Of a stretch of DNA of 54,218 nt, positions 42,916 through 48,590 are shown piece by piece. The notes under the pieces are model-generated. The model was given only the letters and a program-made list of their open reading frames with translations, was not told the origin of the DNA and did no database searches. The number at the start of each line of letters is the position of its first letter. Positions within the stretch are counted from its first letter, which is position 1. Source of the DNA: Arthrobacter sp. PM3 (GTDB lineage Bacteria > Actinomycetota > Actinomycetes > Actinomycetales > Micrococcaceae); assembly GCF_003352915.1 (NCBI RefSeq), contig NZ_CP022314.1, positions 2,896,679-2,950,896 on the forward strand, given 5' to 3'. The position numbers and the translations under genes are program-made.

Positions 42916-43231
42916 TTAAGAAGCGGGGGAGCGGCGTTCAATCAGGATGGTGTCGCGCCATTGTCCGGCGAGCGGGCCGTGGGTCATCCTCGCGATGCGT
43001 TGCCTGCGTCCGACGACGGTGTAGCCGTTGGCGAGATGCACATTGAGGCTGGCTGCATTTTCAGGAAAGACGCTGGCCTGGATGGTCCAGATCCCGTCAG
43101 TCTCGGCGGTGTTCCGAGCCGGGGGCCCGGGCTTCGAAGGTGGCGTGGCCGGTATCGATTCCTTCCTGGTAGATGCGCCGGACGTCGGGCCGGTCGGCGG
43201 GTTCCATGGCCCGGATCGCCCCGGAGCTCAC
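42916..43231 (-). pseudogene. GNAT acetyltransferase remnant, internally deleted
   Basis: GTG 43231 overlaps the arsR stop and starts an acetyltransferase N terminus: IRAMEPADRPDVRRIYQEGI then TGHATFEARAP. The frame stops, and homology continues in another frame as DGIWTIQASVFPENAASLNV and GRRQRIARMTHGPLAGQW. The middle, about 70 residues with the acetyl-CoA loop, is missing. The ends resemble the phosphinothricin/arsinothricin N-acetyltransferase (ArsN) type, which would fit the arsenic cluster. Confidence 0.75.
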
Positions 43232-43581
43232 AGCTTGGCGAGGAGGCCGGCGACGTCGTCCAGCGCACCGGGGGCCAGGGAGAAGTAGGCCCAGGTGCCG
43301 CGCTTTTCCCGGTGCAGCAGTCCCGCTTCAACCAGGATCTTCAGGTGGTGGGATACCGTGGGCTGGCTCAGGTCCAGTGGGTCGGTCAGGTCGCACACGC
43401 AGGTGGCCCCGGTGGATGAGGCCTTGATGATGGAGAGCAGCCTCAGCCGGTTCGGGTCGGCCAGTGCTTTGAACACCAGGGCGTGGTGCTTCGCTTCCTC
43501 CGCGCCCAGGGCAGGCTGGCCTGCCGGTCCACAGCAGGCGTCATCCGTGGCGGGTTGGGCGAGGACGGGCAGCAGGTTCAT
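43228..43581 (-). CDS. arsR: ArsR-type arsenic-responsive repressor
   Basis: 117 residues from ATG 43581. Winged helix-turn-helix: FKALADPNRLRLLSIIKASS, SQPTVSHHLKILVEAGLLHR. Metal-binding Cys61 and Cys63 in ATCVCDL lie at the start of the recognition region as in classic As(III) sensors, and a CC pair (16-17) sits in the N terminus as in the Corynebacterium ArsR site. It would bind DNA without arsenite and release it with arsenite. It lies downstream of the aquaporin gene with a perfect palindrome in the 30-bp gap, and its stop overlaps an acetyltransferase remnant. Confidence 0.9.
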   Translation of the reverse strand: MNLLPVLAQPATDDACCGPAGQPALGAEEAKHHALVFKALADPNRLRLLSIIKASSTGATCVCDLTDPLDLSQPTVSHHLKILVEAGLLHREKRGTWAYFSLAPGALDDVAGLLAKL

Positions 43582-43597
43582 GTACCCATTATGCGCC

Positions 43598-43609
43598 AAT
43601 ATCGATATT
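43598..43609. promoter_or_regulatory. ArsR operator candidate
   Basis: AATATCGATATT, a perfect 12-bp palindrome within TTGATGAATATCGATATTGG on the minus strand, 17 bp before arsR and 3 bp from the aquaporin stop. AT-rich palindromes of this kind are typical ArsR sites, suggesting an internal promoter for arsR. Confidence 0.7.
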
Positions 43610-43611
43610 CA

Positions 43612-44409
43612 TCAATGTAGGGTCGGAGGCGCGGCAGGTGCCCGTCCTCCCGCCGGCACAGCTTCGGTCTGGGAAATGGCCTTTCCGGCTTCATGGGGAA
43701 GGATGACGTCATTTGCGGCGCGGCCCGCCGAGGGAAGCAGGAGGGTGAGGAGGCCCAGTCCGACGGCCCCGCCGATGAGCTGGGCGAGAACGAAGCCGGG
43801 CACGGAGCCCGGTGCGATGCCCGCGGCGGTGTCGGTGAAGATGCGCCCGATCGTCACGGCCGGGTTGGCGAAGGACGTCGAGGAGGTAAACCAGTATGCG
43901 GCCCCGATGTAGGCGCCCACGGCGGGCGCGGCCAGGGTGCCCCGCCGTGTCGCCGCGAGAGTGAAGATCAGCAGGATGAGTCCGGCGGTCGCGACGACTT
44001 CACCGAGCAGGTGGCCGTCGGTGGCGCGGGGCGTGGCGGAGATGGAGGTGCCCACCTCGAACATGGCATTGGCGATGATGCTGCCGCTGATGGCCCCTGC
44101 GGTCTGCGCCGCCGCGTATGCGCCGAGCTCCGGCAGGGTCAACCCGGTGCCGCTGCGCCGCCCCAAGGCCCAGTCGACGAGCGAGACCACCGGGTTGAAG
44201 TGCGCGCCGCCCAGGGGCCCGAAGATGAGGATCAGCACGGTGAGTCCGAGCGCGGTCGCGGTGCTGTTCTGCAGTAGCTGCAGCCCGGCGTCGCTGGGGG
44301 AGAGTTGCTGCGCAGCGATTCCGGAGCCGACGACGATCATCACGAGAAGGCTGGTGCCGAGCAGTTCGGCGACGGCGCGGCGCCACAGCGCCGGCTGGTT
44401 GGAAGTCAT
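43612..44409 (-). CDS. Aquaporin (MIP family), AqpS-like
   Basis: 265 residues, six membrane helices with the two half-helices carrying HFNPVVS (NPV instead of NPA) and FANPAVT (NPA). The C-terminal 40 residues are Pro/Ala-rich. MIP channels inside ars clusters (AqpS of Sinorhizobium) let As(III) leave the cell after arsenate reduction. That role fits here because no ArsB or Acr3 pump is present. It is divergent from the ArsR-ArsC fusion gene with 45 bp between, which contain an inverted repeat, and is followed by arsR. Confidence 0.87.
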   Translation of the reverse strand: MTSNQPALWRRAVAELLGTSLLVMIVVGSGIAAQQLSPSDAGLQLLQNSTATALGLTVLILIFGPLGGAHFNPVVSLVDWALGRRSGTGLTLPELGAYAAAQTAGAISGSIIANAMFEVGTSISATPRATDGHLLGEVVATAGLILLIFTLAATRRGTLAAPAVGAYIGAAYWFTSSTSFANPAVTIGRIFTDTAAGIAPGSVPGFVLAQLIGGAVGLGLLTLLLPSAGRAANDVILPHEAGKAISQTEAVPAGGRAPAAPPTLH

Positions 44410-44434: not shown

Positions 44435-44467
44435 ACTCAGTCAAAATTGAATCAATGAACACTGAGT
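44435..44467. promoter_or_regulatory. Inverted repeat between aquaporin and arsR-arsC fusion genes
   Basis: ACTCAGT (44435-44441) and ACTGAGT (44461-44467) face each other, with TCAAAATTGA (44441-44450) between. It covers the start codon of the fusion gene. Probable binding region of the fusion's own ArsR domain. Confidence 0.45.
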
Positions 44468-45129
44468 CAGCTGATGCTTTCAAGGCGCGGGTTGCCAAGC
44501 ACGCGGCCCTGGCCGATCCTGCACGGCTGCGCATCGTCGACCTGCTGACCCTGGGTGACTTGTCGCCCACGGAACTGCAGGCCGAACTGGGCATGCCCTC
44601 AAACCTGCTGTCCCATCACCTGCGGACCTTGGAGTCCGCGGGCCTGACCACCCGGCACCGCTCCGAAGCCGACCGGCGCCGCAGCTACGTCCGGCTGGCC
44701 GCCGGCGCGACCGAGGGGCTCGTTCCCGGCGTCGAACATGGCGTCGGCCGGATTCTGTTCGTTTGCACGCGGAACAGCGCCCGGTCCCAACTGGCCGCGG
44801 CGCTCTGGGGGCAGGTCAGCGACATCCCCTCGGTGTCGGCAGGAACGCACCCGGCCGAGCGCATCGCCGAGGGGGCGCTCAATGTCGCCCGACGGCACGG
44901 ACTGGACCTGGCCGACCGCCGTCCCCGCGGCCTGAACGAGGTCGGCGGCGACTGGGGCTTCGTCGTGACCGTGTGCGACAACGCCCACGAGGAACTCACC
45001 AATCCCGGCGACGTCCACTGGTCCGTGCCCGATCCCCTCCGGCTCAACACCGACGAAGCCTTCGAGAACGCCTTCACCGACATCTCCCACCGCATCAACG
45101 ACCTCGCGCCCCGGCTGCACGCCGCCTGA
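44455..45129 (+). CDS. ArsR-ArsC fusion: ArsR-like HTH joined to LMW-phosphatase-type arsenate reductase
   Basis: 224 residues. Residues about 10-85 are an ArsR winged helix (LADPARLRIVDLLTLGDLSP, MPSNLLSHHLRTLESAGL) without the CxC metal site. From about 98 a low-molecular-weight phosphatase domain follows with P-loop VCTRNSARSQ (C104, R110). The later NPGDVHWSVPDPLR holds the acid Asp. Such fusions occur in actinobacteria; the regulator may sense through the phosphatase-like domain, or the protein may reduce arsenate. ATG 44455 sits inside the shared promoter region. Divergent from the aquaporin gene. Confidence 0.88.
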   Translation: MNTESADAFKARVAKHAALADPARLRIVDLLTLGDLSPTELQAELGMPSNLLSHHLRTLESAGLTTRHRSEADRRRSYVRLAAGATEGLVPGVEHGVGRILFVCTRNSARSQLAAALWGQVSDIPSVSAGTHPAERIAEGALNVARRHGLDLADRRPRGLNEVGGDWGFVVTVCDNAHEELTNPGDVHWSVPDPLRLNTDEAFENAFTDISHRINDLAPRLHAA

Positions 45130-45178
45130 CCCCGGGATCCCCTCCCGGGCACGAGGCACGCCGGGGCGCAAGCCATAT

Positions 45179-45194
45179 ATTGACAATTATCAAT
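45179..45194. promoter_or_regulatory. ArsR-type operator candidate upstream of arsC
   Basis: ATTGACAATTATCAAT has arms ATTGA/TCAAT with one imperfect inner pair, 122 bp before arsC. Another AT-rich half (ATCAGCATCAATATT) follows at about 45218-45232. The gap from 45130 to 45315 holds no gene, so this is probably the promoter of the arsC transcript. Confidence 0.65.
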
Positions 45195-45315
45195 GAATCG
45201 TCCGATACTCCATACATCGATCAGCATCAATATTTGCGTGGCGATGCAGGACGCGGACGCTTCCACCGAACCAGACCGTTTCACCCGTCCCCTAACTAAC
45301 TCCAGGAGAAAACCA

Positions 45316-45738
45316 GTGAGCACCGAAGCCGCCAAGAAGCCTTCCGTCCTGTTCGTCTGTATCCACAATGCGGGCCGCTCCCAGATGGCCGCCGCCTTCC
45401 TTACCACCCTCGGCAAGGGCCAGATCGAGGTCCGCTCTGCCGGGTCCCAGCCCGCCGACAAGATCAACCCGGCCGCCGTCGAGGCCATGGCCGAGCTGGG
45501 CATCGACATGTCCGCCGAGATCCCCAAGGTCCTGACCACCGAGGCCGTGAAGGAGTCCGACGTGGTGATCACCATGGGCTGCGGCGACGAGTGCCCGTAC
45601 TTCCCGGGCAAGCGCTACGAGGACTGGGTCCTGAAGGACCCTGCAGGCAAGGGCGTGGAGTCCGTCCGGCCGATCCGGGACCAGATCAAGACCCGGATCG
45701 AGGGCCTGATCGAATCCCTCGTCCCGGCCGCCAAGTAG
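45316..45738 (+). CDS. arsC: Arsenate reductase, LMW-phosphatase fold
   Basis: 140 residues from GTG 45316, behind CAGGAGAA; an in-frame ATG 123 bp upstream is rejected because it lies over the operator region. P-loop [13 protein letters not shown] (C15, R21); a second Cys region [20 protein letters not shown] (C89, C93) supplies the resolving cysteine. It reduces arsenate to arsenite with mycothiol/mycoredoxin or thioredoxin. GKGVESVRPIRDQI contains the loop usual in the family. A 22-codon cysteine-rich frame starts 36 bp downstream. Confidence 0.92.
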   Translation: MSTEAAKKPSVLFVCIHNAGRSQMAAAFLTTLGKGQIEVRSAGSQPADKINPAAVEAMAELGIDMSAEIPKVLTTEAVKESDVVITMGCGDECPYFPGKRYEDWVLKDPAGKGVESVRPIRDQIKTRIEGLIESLVPAAK

Positions 45739-45774
45739 CATGCCCAACACCCGGACGGGGAGGAGGTGAGCTGA

Positions 45775-45843
45775 ATGAGGACAGGATGCTGCGGCGACGG
45801 CTGCTGCGATGGCGATCAGGACTGTGACCAGGACTGCTGCTGA
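45775..45843 (+). CDS. Cysteine-rich 22-residue peptide in the ars operon
   Basis: A complete small frame, ATG 45775 to TGA 45841-45843. AGGAGGTGA (45761-45769) is a near-perfect anti-16S match five bases before the ATG, the best ribosome site in the window. Seven of 22 residues are Cys (positions 5, 6, 10, 11, 17, 21, 22), as two CC pairs split by GDG, one single Cys and a terminal CC. Asp is six of the remaining residues, with Gly and Gln; there is almost no hydrophobic residue. It resembles a tiny metallothionein-like metal or As(III) binder, or a leader peptide sensing Cys/thiol state. It lies between arsC and the flavoprotein gene on the same strand. Not known to me. Confidence 0.7.
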   Translation: MRTGCCGDGCCDGDQDCDQDCC

Positions 45844-45923
45844 ACCTCCGTCTGCCGGATCCCGAATAGATCCGGCAGGCACCCCACACCCGACACCACC
45901 AAATGATGAGAAAAGAGGACAGC

Positions 45924-47309
45924 ATGGACGCACCAAAGACCGTTCCGGTTGCCGTGATCGGCGCCGGACCCGTAGGCCTGGCCGCCGCAGCCCACCTGAT
46001 CGAACGCGGCCTCGAACCGCTGATCCTCGAAGCCGGCCCGACGGCGGGCGCCGCCATCGAGCAGTGGCGCCACATCCGGCTGTTCTCGCCCTGGAGGTTC
46101 AACCTCGACGCCGCCGCCGTGCGGCTCCTCGAGGCGTCCGGCTGGGAATCTCCCCGCCCGACCGCCCTGCCCTATGGGGGCGAACTCATCGACAAATACC
46201 TCGCACCCCTGGCCGCCCTGCCTGAGATCGCCTCCCGGCTACAGACCGGCGCCCGGGTCGTCGCCGTCACCCGGCAGGGCATGGACAGGACCCACAGCCG
46301 GGACCGCGGCACCACACCCTTCGTGGTCCGGGTCGAACGCGCCGACGGCGAGGTTAGGGAGTACCAGGCCGCCGCTGTCATCGACGCGTCCGGCACTTGG
46401 TCCACCCGCAACCCGCTCGGAACCTCCGGCTTGCCCGCGGTTGGCGAAGACGCCGCCGCTGCCCACATTTCATCGCCGCTGCCGGACGTCCTGGGCCGGG
46501 ACCGCGAAGCGTTTGCAGGGCACACCGCCGTCGTGATCGGTGCGGGCCATTCCGCCGCCAACACCCTGATCAACCTGTCGGAGCTCGCCGCCCAGACGCC
46601 CGGGACAAAGATTGTGTGGGCGATCCGCGGCGCTTCCGCGGCCAAGGTCTACGGGGGAGGCGACGCCGACGGCCTCGCCGCGCGCGGCCAGCTCGGCAGC
46701 CGGCTCCGCGCCCTGGTCGAATCCGGCACCGTGGAACTGCACACCGGCTTCGGGATCGCCTCCCTCGCCACGGCCGACGGCGCCGTCACCCTGACCGCCA
46801 CCAACAGCCGGACCCTGAAGGCCGACGTCGTGGTCCCGGCCACCGGCTTCCGCCCCGATCTGGACATCCTCCGGGAACTTCGGCTCGAACTGGACCCCGC
46901 CGTGGAAGCCCCGCGTGAGCTCGGCCCGCTGATCGACCCCGAATTCCACTCCTGCGGCACCGTCGAGCCCCACGGCGCCAGGATGCTGGCCCACCCGGAA
47001 CAGGACTTCTACATCGTCGGCATGAAGTCCTACGGCCGGGCCCCCACCTTCCTGCTCGCCACCGGCTACGAGCAGGTCCGCTCCGTCGCGGCCGCCCTGG
47101 CCGGGGACCGCGAGGCCGCCGACACCGTCCAGCTCGACCTTCCCGAAACCGGCGTCTGCTCCTCGGACATCGGCACCAGCTGCGACGTCCCCGCAGCCGT
47201 ACCCGCAGGGTTTGTCGTCGAAACCGCCGGCGGCTGCTGCGGAGCACCCGAACCCGTCCTCGTCGGATTCCCCACCGGACTGGCCCACGGTCGCTCCGGC
47301 GAAAACTGA
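45924..47309 (+). CDS. FAD-dependent monooxygenase/oxidoreductase of ars operons (ArsO-like)
   Basis: 461 residues from ATG 45924 with AAGAGGA ahead; an in-frame ATG 21 bp upstream would leave that site inside the gene. FAD motif VIGAGPVGLAAAAHL (about 10-24), a second dinucleotide motif VVIGAGHSAANTL (about 205) for NADPH, and ATGFRPDLDIL. This is the layout of flavin monooxygenase-like proteins found in actinobacterial arsenic clusters. The C-terminal 40 residues hold VCSSDIGTSCDVP and GGCCGAPEP with several cysteines, possible arsenic contacts. Substrate unproven; oxidation or reduction of an arsenical is inferred from position. Confidence 0.78.
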   Translation: MDAPKTVPVAVIGAGPVGLAAAAHLIERGLEPLILEAGPTAGAAIEQWRHIRLFSPWRFNLDAAAVRLLEASGWESPRPTALPYGGELIDKYLAPLAALPEIASRLQTGARVVAVTRQGMDRTHSRDRGTTPFVVRVERADGEVREYQAAAVIDASGTWSTRNPLGTSGLPAVGEDAAAAHISSPLPDVLGRDREAFAGHTAVVIGAGHSAANTLINLSELAAQTPGTKIVWAIRGASAAKVYGGGDADGLAARGQLGSRLRALVESGTVELHTGFGIASLATADGAVTLTATNSRTLKADVVVPATGFRPDLDILRELRLELDPAVEAPRELGPLIDPEFHSCGTVEPHGARMLAHPEQDFYIVGMKSYGRAPTFLLATGYEQVRSVAAALAGDREAADTVQLDLPETGVCSSDIGTSCDVPAAVPAGFVVETAGGCCGAPEPVLVGFPTGLAHGRSGEN

Positions 47310-47353: not shown

Positions 47354-48028
47354 ATGACTGACCACCACGAACACCGGGGCCTGCAGGACAACACCGAACT
47401 CCTGCACCGGATCAGCGCGCGCCTGGCAGACCGGTTCGCCGGGGTGTTCGCGGCGGAGACGGTCGAACGCTACGTCTTCGAGTCCTACACGGCCCTGGCC
47501 CGGACGGCGAAGATCACCACGCACCTGCCATCCACCACCGAGCACTTCGCCGGCGACCGTCTTAATGCCCTGGTCAAATCTAAGGACGCCGTCGCGTCCG
47601 AGGTCCCCGAAGTGCTGTTTGTCTGCGTGCAGAACGCCGGCCGGTCCCAGATGGCCGCGGCCCCACTCACCGTCGAGGCCAAAGGCAGGATCCACGTCCG
47701 GTCCGCCGGCTCCCTGCCGGCTGCCGAGCTGGACCCGGCCGTCGTCGCTGCGATGTCCGAAATGGGCCTCGACCTGACCAAGGACTACCCCAAGCCCTTG
47801 ACCGACGACGTCGTGCGCGCCTCCGACGTCGTGATCACGATGGGCTGCGGCGACTCCTGCCCCATCTACCCCGGCAAACGCTACGAGGACTGGGAACTGG
47901 CCGACCCGGCCGGTCTGCCCGTCGCGGCCGTGCGGATCATCCGCGACGAGATCCACGACCGGGTCAAGGCGCTGGCTTCATCATTGCTCCATGACCCCAG
48001 CTCAGAAAAGGAAGAATCAAGCGCATGA
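47354..48028 (+). CDS. arsC: Arsenate reductase with N-terminal three-helix domain
   Basis: 224 residues. The first 80 residues form a helical domain ([34 protein letters not shown]) found before ArsC in mycobacteria and corynebacteria. From about 86 an LMW-phosphatase domain with P-loop [13 protein letters not shown] (C91, R97) and [20 protein letters not shown] follows. Likely a mycothiol-dependent arsenate reductase. [12 protein letters not shown] has a Pro where neighbours have Leu. It starts 45 bp after the flavoprotein gene and its stop overlaps the next start. Confidence 0.9.
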
Positions 48029-48447
48029 CCGAGACCACGACAACGCCTGGCGTCCTGTTCGTCTGCAGCAAGAACGGCGGAAAATCCCAGCTCGCCGCCG
48101 GCCTCATGAACCAGCTCGCCGGCGGAGACGTCACCGTCTACTCGGCAGGGACCAAACCCGGGACATCCCTGAACCCGCAGGCCGTGGAATCCCTGGCCGA
48201 ACTTGGCATCGACATCACCGGCGAACACCCCAAGCCCGTATCCGGGGAGGTGCTCGACGCCGTCGACGTGGTAGTGGTGCTGGGCACTGAAGCGAAACTC
48301 GAATCCCGCGGGGGCGCCCGCTTCGAGGTGTGGGAAACGGACGAGCCCTCCGAGCGCGGCATTGAAGGCATGGAGCGGATGCGCCTGGTCCGGGACGACA
48401 TCAAAGCCCGGGTCCAGAAGCTCCACACGGAGCTCACCGGGCACTAA
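48025..48447 (+). CDS. LMW-phosphatase-fold protein with CX5K active site
   Basis: 140 residues, coupled to the upstream arsC by ATGA. The P-loop reads [14 protein letters not shown]14 followed after five residues by K20, not the Arg that binds phosphate or arsenate in almost all the family. The second Cys region is absent ([20 protein letters not shown]). The fold is complete and the gene is intact. It may be a weak or specialised arsenate-thiol transferase or a binding protein. Last intact gene of the ars transcript. Confidence 0.82.
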
Positions 48448-48449
48448 GC

Positions 48450-48590
48450 ATGCCGGCCCCAGCGGTATCCCGGGCACTGGCCGCGGTCCGGCCCATCAGC
48501 GCCGACACCGGCTGGGACCCGGCGCTGGTCACCGGGGCATTCTCCGCCGGGCTCGTGGTGTCCGCCGGGGCTGGAATCGCGGTTTTCTAG
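48450..48590 (+). pseudogene. MFS transporter N-terminal remnant
   Basis: 46 residues from ATG 48450, right after the ars operon. SADTGWDPALVTGAFSAGLV followed by VSAGAGIAVF looks like the first helices of an MFS carrier, and the frame ends in TAG where repeat R2 copy D begins. A transporter gene, possibly for arsenicals, was probably cut off here by the repeat or the event that brought it. Confidence 0.6.

Follow-up and report, generated by a model that had tools for sequence, protein, structure and literature searches.

A conserved cysteine-pair mini-peptide gene in the ars operons of Arthrobacter and its near relatives

A genuine gene for a very small peptide built around pairs of adjacent cysteines is almost certainly present in ars operons of Arthrobacter and closely related genera, and its product is probably an As(III)-binding thiol peptide that serves as a buffer or a chaperone. 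The gene was picked out in a 54,218-nucleotide stretch of Arthrobacter sp. PM3 (contig NZ_CP022314.1, positions 2,896,679 to 2,950,896), hereafter the window, by a first-pass annotation that took a 22-residue frame in the ars operon for a Cys-rich peptide gene of a size that gene finders skip. This proposal is borne out by conservation, by purifying selection acting in the peptide's own frame, by the Cys pairs, and by the ribosome site.

Translation of positions 45775-45843 on the forward strand gives MRTGCCGDGCCDGDQDCDQDCC and then a stop, with Cys at residues 5, 6, 10, 11, 17, 21, and 22, and places the frame between arsC1 and the ArsO-like flavoprotein gene (Table 1), all as first read. The 80 bases reported between the peptide stop and the next start likewise hold if the flavoprotein is taken to start at 45924; an alternative in-frame ATG lies at 45903. 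The ribosome site had been called the strongest in the stretch, and its computed pairing with the 16S tail (−16.0 kcal/mol) indeed exceeds that at the eleven other start sites scored out of all the window genes (−0.8 to −7.1 kcal/mol), two of which are alternative starts of one gene and one of which was taken a base off. The Shine-Dalgarno (SD) sequence AGGAGGTGA, separated from the ATG by a spacer of five bases, has its sole exact copy in the window here when both strands are checked. By chance, it would be expected at a mean of 0.29 copies per shuffle of the window, with at least one copy in 26 of 100 shuffles.

Gene names in the window are given by similarity, the NCBIfam ArsO and ArsC models having matched below their cut-offs, with YpdA ranking second among the NCBIfam matches of the window's ArsO. 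Just one promoter-like site was recognized in 45130-45960, by consensus match, and it lies upstream of arsC1; this is perhaps the start of the transcript carrying the peptide, which would probably put the peptide frame in mid-operon. No trxB was found in the window and no Acr3 in the window's genome, and the two PF02040 (ArsB) matches in that genome both fall outside the ars locus. Further vicinal Cys pairs occur in the locus: the ArsO C terminus (window 47150-47260) bears a Cys-containing tail, CSSDIGTSC...GGCCGAPEP, and the ArsR N terminus (window 43520-43580) starts DDACCGPAG. Window 48450-48590 holds the remnant of an MFS transporter gene, internally deleted and truncated, of which residues 39-74 share 92% identity with the MFS transporter of plasmid NZ_CP084562.

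Table 1. Features of the ars locus in the window (window coordinates)
Feature	Position	Strand	Remarks
ArsR-family regulator	43228..43599	−	Profile matches
Aquaporin (MIP), probable As(III) channel of the locus	43612..44409	−	PF00230 passed
ArsR-ArsC fusion gene (ArsR plus ArsC-like domain in one gene)	44455..45129	+	Profile matches
Promoter-like site TTGACA-18-GATACT, upstream of arsC1	45180..45209	+	Consensus match only
arsC1, LMW-phosphatase-type arsenate reductase, upstream neighbor	45316..45738	+	PF01451 passed; NCBIfam arsC models below cut-offs
Shine-Dalgarno AGGAGGTGA of the mini-peptide	45761..45769	+	Full complement of the 16S tail
Cys-pair mini-peptide gene	45775..45843	+	22 codons, MRTGCCGDGCCDGDQDCDQDCC; conserved family, in-frame purifying selection
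G+C-rich hairpin after the peptide stop	45850..45880	+	12-pair stem; no T run after it
ArsO-like FAD/NAD(P) oxidoreductase, downstream neighbor	45924..47309	+	Best NCBIfam model ArsO, far below cut-off; Pfam Pyr_redox_3
Second ArsC, with N-terminal three-helix domain	47354..48028	+	Profile matches
Third ArsC-like LMW phosphatase	48025..48447	+	Profile matches

A strict CCGDGCC pattern run over 206 same-genus genomes matched at 12 places in 11 of them. Seven of these places are frames of 18 to 22 residues with a similar ribosome site and with arsC1 within about 1.2 kb upstream. The other five (L001, L006, L008, L009, and L012) are unrelated, consisting of another sequence, ...GCCGDGCCVVSGV, and the opposite strand of the two that were checked (L006 and L009) reads as Thr-rich, so these are not family members. 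Because the peptide gene is more variable than the pattern, arsO, which had a match in 172 of 204 same-genus genomes, was used as the anchor. Within 1,900 bases upstream of the first 110 arsO loci, a short frame with at least five Cys was present on the arsO strand in 51 loci and on the other strand in 6, and a single family made up 50 of the 51. The peptide was then counted as present wherever an ATG frame of 14 to 40 residues with at least five Cys and a CC end lay within 300 bases before arsO; it was found in 64 of 149 same-genus arsO loci, among the matches listed, as 58 distinct sequences. The 149 loci comprise 147 of the best 150 arsO places listed plus L216 and L224, with G098 (peptide present), G109, and G096 left out. 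Since they were found via arsO, their context counts are biased, and a pattern scan of GTDB R220, described below, served as a check on this bias.

The 64 members are 17 to 31 residues long, carry a net charge of −3 to −8, and consist of 32% Cys, 27% Asp, and 13% Gly. Most have six Cys (46 members), the others seven (13), five (4), or ten (1). Three CC pairs occur in 56 members and two in 7 (L046, L067, L086, L245, L252, and L255 among them), while L138 has five through a repeated TDTGCC unit. An alignment of 58 typed members, which differ as a set from the 58 distinct sequences among the 64 loci, has the consensus MxTGCCxDxGCCDDDQDCC; M1, C5, C6, D8, C10, and C11 are conserved in at least 90% of them and C21 and C22 in all. 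The window frame shares the defining traits of length, a CC near residues 5 and 6, a terminal CC, a strong SD, and ars neighbors. Conservation in related clusters, which the first-pass annotation had set as the test of its proposal, is evident in these same-genus arsO loci not only from the 64 frames but also from six Cys columns that hold Cys in 297 of 300 cells (first 50 members) and from a GGTGA that precedes the start by no more than 18 bases in 62 of 64. At all 64 loci, the computed pairing of the peptide SD is stronger than that of the arsO SD.

Selection acts on the peptide frame in particular. In four length classes, which cover 40 of the first 50 members, in-frame pN/pS is 0.37 to 0.58, against 0.87 to 0.95 and 1.62 to 1.86 in the other two same-strand frames, and dN/dS, taken over every pairing of the first 50 members (pairs that are not independent), is about 0.31. 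Length differences among the same 50 members always amount to whole codons. Taken together, the selection, the conserved residues, and the whole-codon length changes point to a translated peptide in which residues beyond Cys matter. It is accordingly extremely improbable that we are dealing with a chance frame or a DNA-level repeat that happens to resemble a Cys peptide. GC-rich DNA does yield such frames, as the five unrelated strict-pattern places and most of the looser-pattern places read (see below) illustrate, but none of 4,470 dinucleotide shuffles of the same upstream segments gave a peptide-like frame by the same criteria without the SD, the synonymous bias is present in one frame only, and the SD and ATG are conserved while the stop codons vary (TAA in 24, TGA in 20, and TAG in 6 of the first 50 members).

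The neighborhood of the gene says something about its partners. The next gene upstream is trxB in 40, arsC1 in 22, aquaporin in 1, and another gene in 1 of the 64 loci with the peptide; the corresponding counts in the 85 loci without it are 47, 28, 1, and 9. As trxB is similarly common with or without the peptide, it is no special partner, and a link between the two was dropped. The same counts weigh on the idea that the peptide is an encoded low-molecular-weight thiol, that is, a redox partner of the arsenate reductases or ArsO that is re-reduced by TrxB or ArsO and is not a metalloid ligand. The frequent position between arsC or trxB and a flavin disulfide-reductase-like protein would suit such a role, as would the YpdA match of ArsO and the ability of vicinal Cys pairs to cycle between thiol and disulfide. 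We nevertheless consider it quite unlikely, given the trxB counts, the lack of trxB in the window, the absence of arsO from four peptide loci, and the strained character of disulfides formed by adjacent Cys.

Those four loci (L170, L174, L196, and L199) extend the range of layouts in which the peptide is intact, which includes positions after arsC1, after trxB, and after aquaporin. L170 and L196 share the order arsR-aquaporin-peptide-arsC-trxB. In L174, a contig of a metagenome-assembled genome (MAG), trxB, the peptide, and a hairpin are followed by no recognized ars gene, and in L199 trxB and the peptide precede what by eye is an apparent arsC3 remnant.

The peptide is commonly followed by a stem-loop. 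One text pattern found a G+C-rich hairpin after the peptide stop in 36 of the 64 loci, another palindrome in 18, and neither in 10, compared with 4, 5, and 76, respectively, of the 85 loci without the peptide, among which the pattern missed at least three imperfect hairpins seen by eye (L051, L052, and L064). The hairpin sequence is single-copy in both of the genomes where it was matched, out of seven searched. At L088, L090, L132, and other loci, the place that the G+C-rich hairpin has in other species is taken by a palindrome with ends like CCCAACTAGGTAGC; copies of this end sequence are scattered over some Arthrobacter-type genomes, its 14 bases occurring at 35 places in G114, 5 in G044, 3 in G043, 1 in G177, and none in three other genomes.

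This co-occurrence of peptide and stem-loop was counted alike for a message-protecting role of the hairpin and for a regulatory leader, one of the interpretations originally offered for the frame. Under the latter, translation of the Cys frame would control the downstream gene via the hairpin, with ribosomes stalling when Cys is short or when the nascent chain binds arsenite. By the text pattern, a hairpin or palindrome follows in 54 of 64 loci with the peptide versus 9 of 85 without (at least three more by eye), and there are precedents: as PMC9094748 relates in citing Canestrari 2020, poly-Cys short frames are cysteine-responsive attenuators in mycobacteria, and PMC4562236 describes an intergenic hairpin as an attenuator of the ars1 operon in Bacillus CDB3. 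In the predicted fold of the window, the peptide SD also pairs with ACCUCC after the stop. Across the family, this pairing is slightly better than in shuffles (mean of −19.9 versus −17.9 kcal/mol), but the difference is weak (mean z of −0.70, below −1.6 in 13 of 64 members), and we set it aside as a conserved switch. The frame, moreover, sits mid-operon behind varied upstream genes and has an SD, so it is not leaderless; Asp-8 is conserved besides the Cys; 18 loci have another palindrome and 10 have none; and no T run follows the hairpin in the window. The leader reading is further weakened by the peptide's persistence intact in the four loci without arsO, or before another gene, the L174 hairpin even preceding no recognized ars gene. 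On balance, a regulatory leader seems unlikely even though the stem-loop is common, while the interpretation of the frame as a peptide gene stands.

To survey the taxonomic spread independently of arsO, GTDB R220 species representatives were scanned for the combination of SD, ATG, first CC, and last CC. The scan returned 48 stretches, of which 45 lie in Arthrobacter, Pseudarthrobacter, or Paenarthrobacter, and 44 of these 45 are short frames with a CC end; the remaining one (L180) has lost its stop and continues into ArsO. Recognized ars genes are present on the fetched piece in 42 of the 45, and of the three without them two lie directly after trxB and the third at a contig end. Since the pattern fixes the SD and the CC spacing, relatives with other ribosome sites would escape it. 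The three stretches from elsewhere come from Geodermatophilus sabuli and from two MAGs, one of Chloroflexi and one of Planctomycetota. Near the Chloroflexi match MPRGCCDPDCCPGDCC (L153), an ArsR-type gene was seen about 1.85 kb away but no ars operon by eye, the Planctomycetota match (L163) is a six-residue frame, and both were rejected as probably due to chance. The G. sabuli lookalike MNDECCEGCTTEECGTGCC (L176:3844-3903), 19 residues with six Cys, is the last gene of an ArsI-like/acetyltransferase group beside an ArsR gene, with a strong hairpin directly after it. Reading 30 loci with related ArsI-like genes, taken from the matches in 149 genomes, turned up no similar frame, so a wider class is unsupported, and the lookalike may be convergent or due to chance.

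Other searches speak less clearly. A looser pattern matched 61 places in 395 genomes of the taxonomic family, but its reversed-pattern control also matched often; among the 30 places read, the members were the window copy and one known genus member (L019 and L028), with none outside the genus, and the pattern, fitting only CCGDGCC-like members, is a poor test of absence. No member was found in 21 arsO loci from other genera of the order (the best-scoring of the matches in 142 genomes). A profile search of 394 genomes of the class with the peptide alignment matched only weakly, in 13 of them, and failed to recover the copy in the window, which makes it uninformative on distribution, and tblastn of a 20-residue member against plasmids gave no match although NZ_CP084562 carries a relative, so this search is insensitive. 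Evidence for absence outside the genus is thus thin.

Within the genus, the peptide is inherited with the operon but is often lost or gained. On an arsO tree of 143 rows, its presence switches at least 27 times, fewer than in 100 shuffles (mean of 47, minimum of 37); the tree leaves out 6 of the 149 loci, those without a 300-residue ArsO from the predicted start, none of which has the peptide. Of the 149 loci, 85 lack the peptide by our criteria. Relics are recognizable at some loci: L091 retains the SD alone, L133 the SD and ATG with the frame gone, and L108 a decayed frame. In two of the 85 (L111 and L128), the frame runs into ArsO. In L128, where the peptide start precedes the aligned ArsO start by 18 bases, a natural deletion joins the first peptide residues, MDNGCCTGSG, in frame to ArsO, which thereby gains the peptide's ribosome site. 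In L180/L111, the peptide stop has changed from TGA to TGG and the frame continues into ArsO, the ArsO match in that genome having one internal stop (TAA). The absences, the frequent changes of presence, and the relics together indicate that the peptide is dispensable.

The first-pass annotation also held that gene finders skip such a frame and that it belongs to no described family. The former applies to the one annotated record we inspected, plasmid NZ_CP084562, whose gene table is incomplete: the frame there (L227, 5455-5514) occupies a featureless gap between trxB and the flavoprotein gene. The latter agrees with our searches, in which five family peptides, as very short queries at E values up to 10, gave one irrelevant match (E of 6.9) and no metallothionein in Pfam and zero matches in NCBIfam; no fitting family emerged from either, although queries of this shortness make for a weak test. 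A PDB search returned one meaningless match (E of 5.7), and no match to PF06953 (ArsD) was seen among the peptides tested.

The conservation of Asp along with Cys, the strongest SD among those scored, the persistence without arsO, and the company of ars genes all suggest that the peptide itself is the product. As(III) prefers three thiolates, and an As(III) ligand would be expected to resemble this acidic, flexible chain with its six thiols arranged as three vicinal pairs. From composition and operon context we infer the following course of events. Once ArsR releases the operon, the peptide would be translated at a high level, and its vicinal Cys pairs would bind As(III), or Sb(III), arriving from the arsenate reductases, with three thiols per metalloid, while Asp and Glu keep it soluble and Gly keeps the chain flexible. 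Binding would lower free cytosolic arsenite, which should help the cell, and the bound arsenite could be handed over to the flavoprotein or to an export route, perhaps the aquaporin. With no Acr3 in the genome and its two PF02040 matches located elsewhere, the aquaporin or remote exporters may be the way out for arsenite. As for the hairpin behind the stop, it may shield or punctuate the message and in this way let arsC and the peptide outnumber arsO. A ligand of this generic thiol kind might equally serve Cd, Hg, Cu, or Zn and sit in the ars operon for convenience only, its metal preference being illegible from sequence; we think this very unlikely given that recognized ars genes accompany 42 of the 45 pattern matches.

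These results describe a gene of 17 to 31 codons, below the usual annotation size, that is conserved over dozens of species in one of the most thoroughly studied types of resistance operon. Should its product bind arsenite, few dedicated metalloid-binding gene products would be smaller; it would offer a natural template for arsenic biosensing or remediation and would hint at hidden mini-peptides in other resistance operons as well. The proposal is directly testable, as the peptide is short enough to be synthesized and natural pairs of species with and without it exist.

Cys-rich metal-binding peptides as a kind are known, while no description of this peptide was recognized in the literature searched, whether for the family, its size, or its place in the operon. 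The closest comparisons are metallothioneins, ArsD, and phytochelatins in function and the mycobacterial poly-Cys attenuators in size. Like the bacterial metallothioneins (SmtA, MymT, and the Pseudomonas MTs), the mini-peptides are small, Cys-rich, and presumed soft-metal ligands. Bacterial metallothioneins, however, have about 50 residues or more and C-x-C or C-x-x-C patterns, whereas the mini-peptides have vicinal CC pairs at less than that length, match no metallothionein profile, and lie in ars operons. ArsD, the arsenite metallochaperone that works with ArsA in As(III) delivery, is folded and about 120 residues long. The mini-peptides resemble it in their operon and in their vicinal Cys pairs, which PMC4562236 mentions for ArsD, but they are far shorter and are without a PF06953 match. 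The mycobacterial poly-Cys attenuators, compared here through the citing text, are likewise actinobacterial, very short Cys-rich frames beside operon genes; they are leaderless and act on downstream genes, whereas the mini-peptide follows a very strong SD in mid-operon, with its promoter-like site ahead of arsC1, keeps Asp-8 as well as Cys, and occurs in four loci without arsO.

A further likeness is to the phytochelatins, short acidic Cys-Gly peptides with repeated Cys units that chelate As(III) and Cd. Phytochelatins are made enzymatically and non-ribosomally with gamma-Glu bonds; the mini-peptide, in contrast, is encoded codon by codon, has Asp mostly in place of Glu, and carries its Cys in pairs. 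One might picture, as a tentative and rather doubtful extension of the As(III)-binding reading, a ribosomal analogue of phytochelatin: an expandable chain of Cys pairs that would act as a dedicated arsenic thiol, be made from the strongest ribosome site scored, and have the neighboring TrxB or ArsO-like flavoprotein, where present, as its reductase or As-transfer partner.
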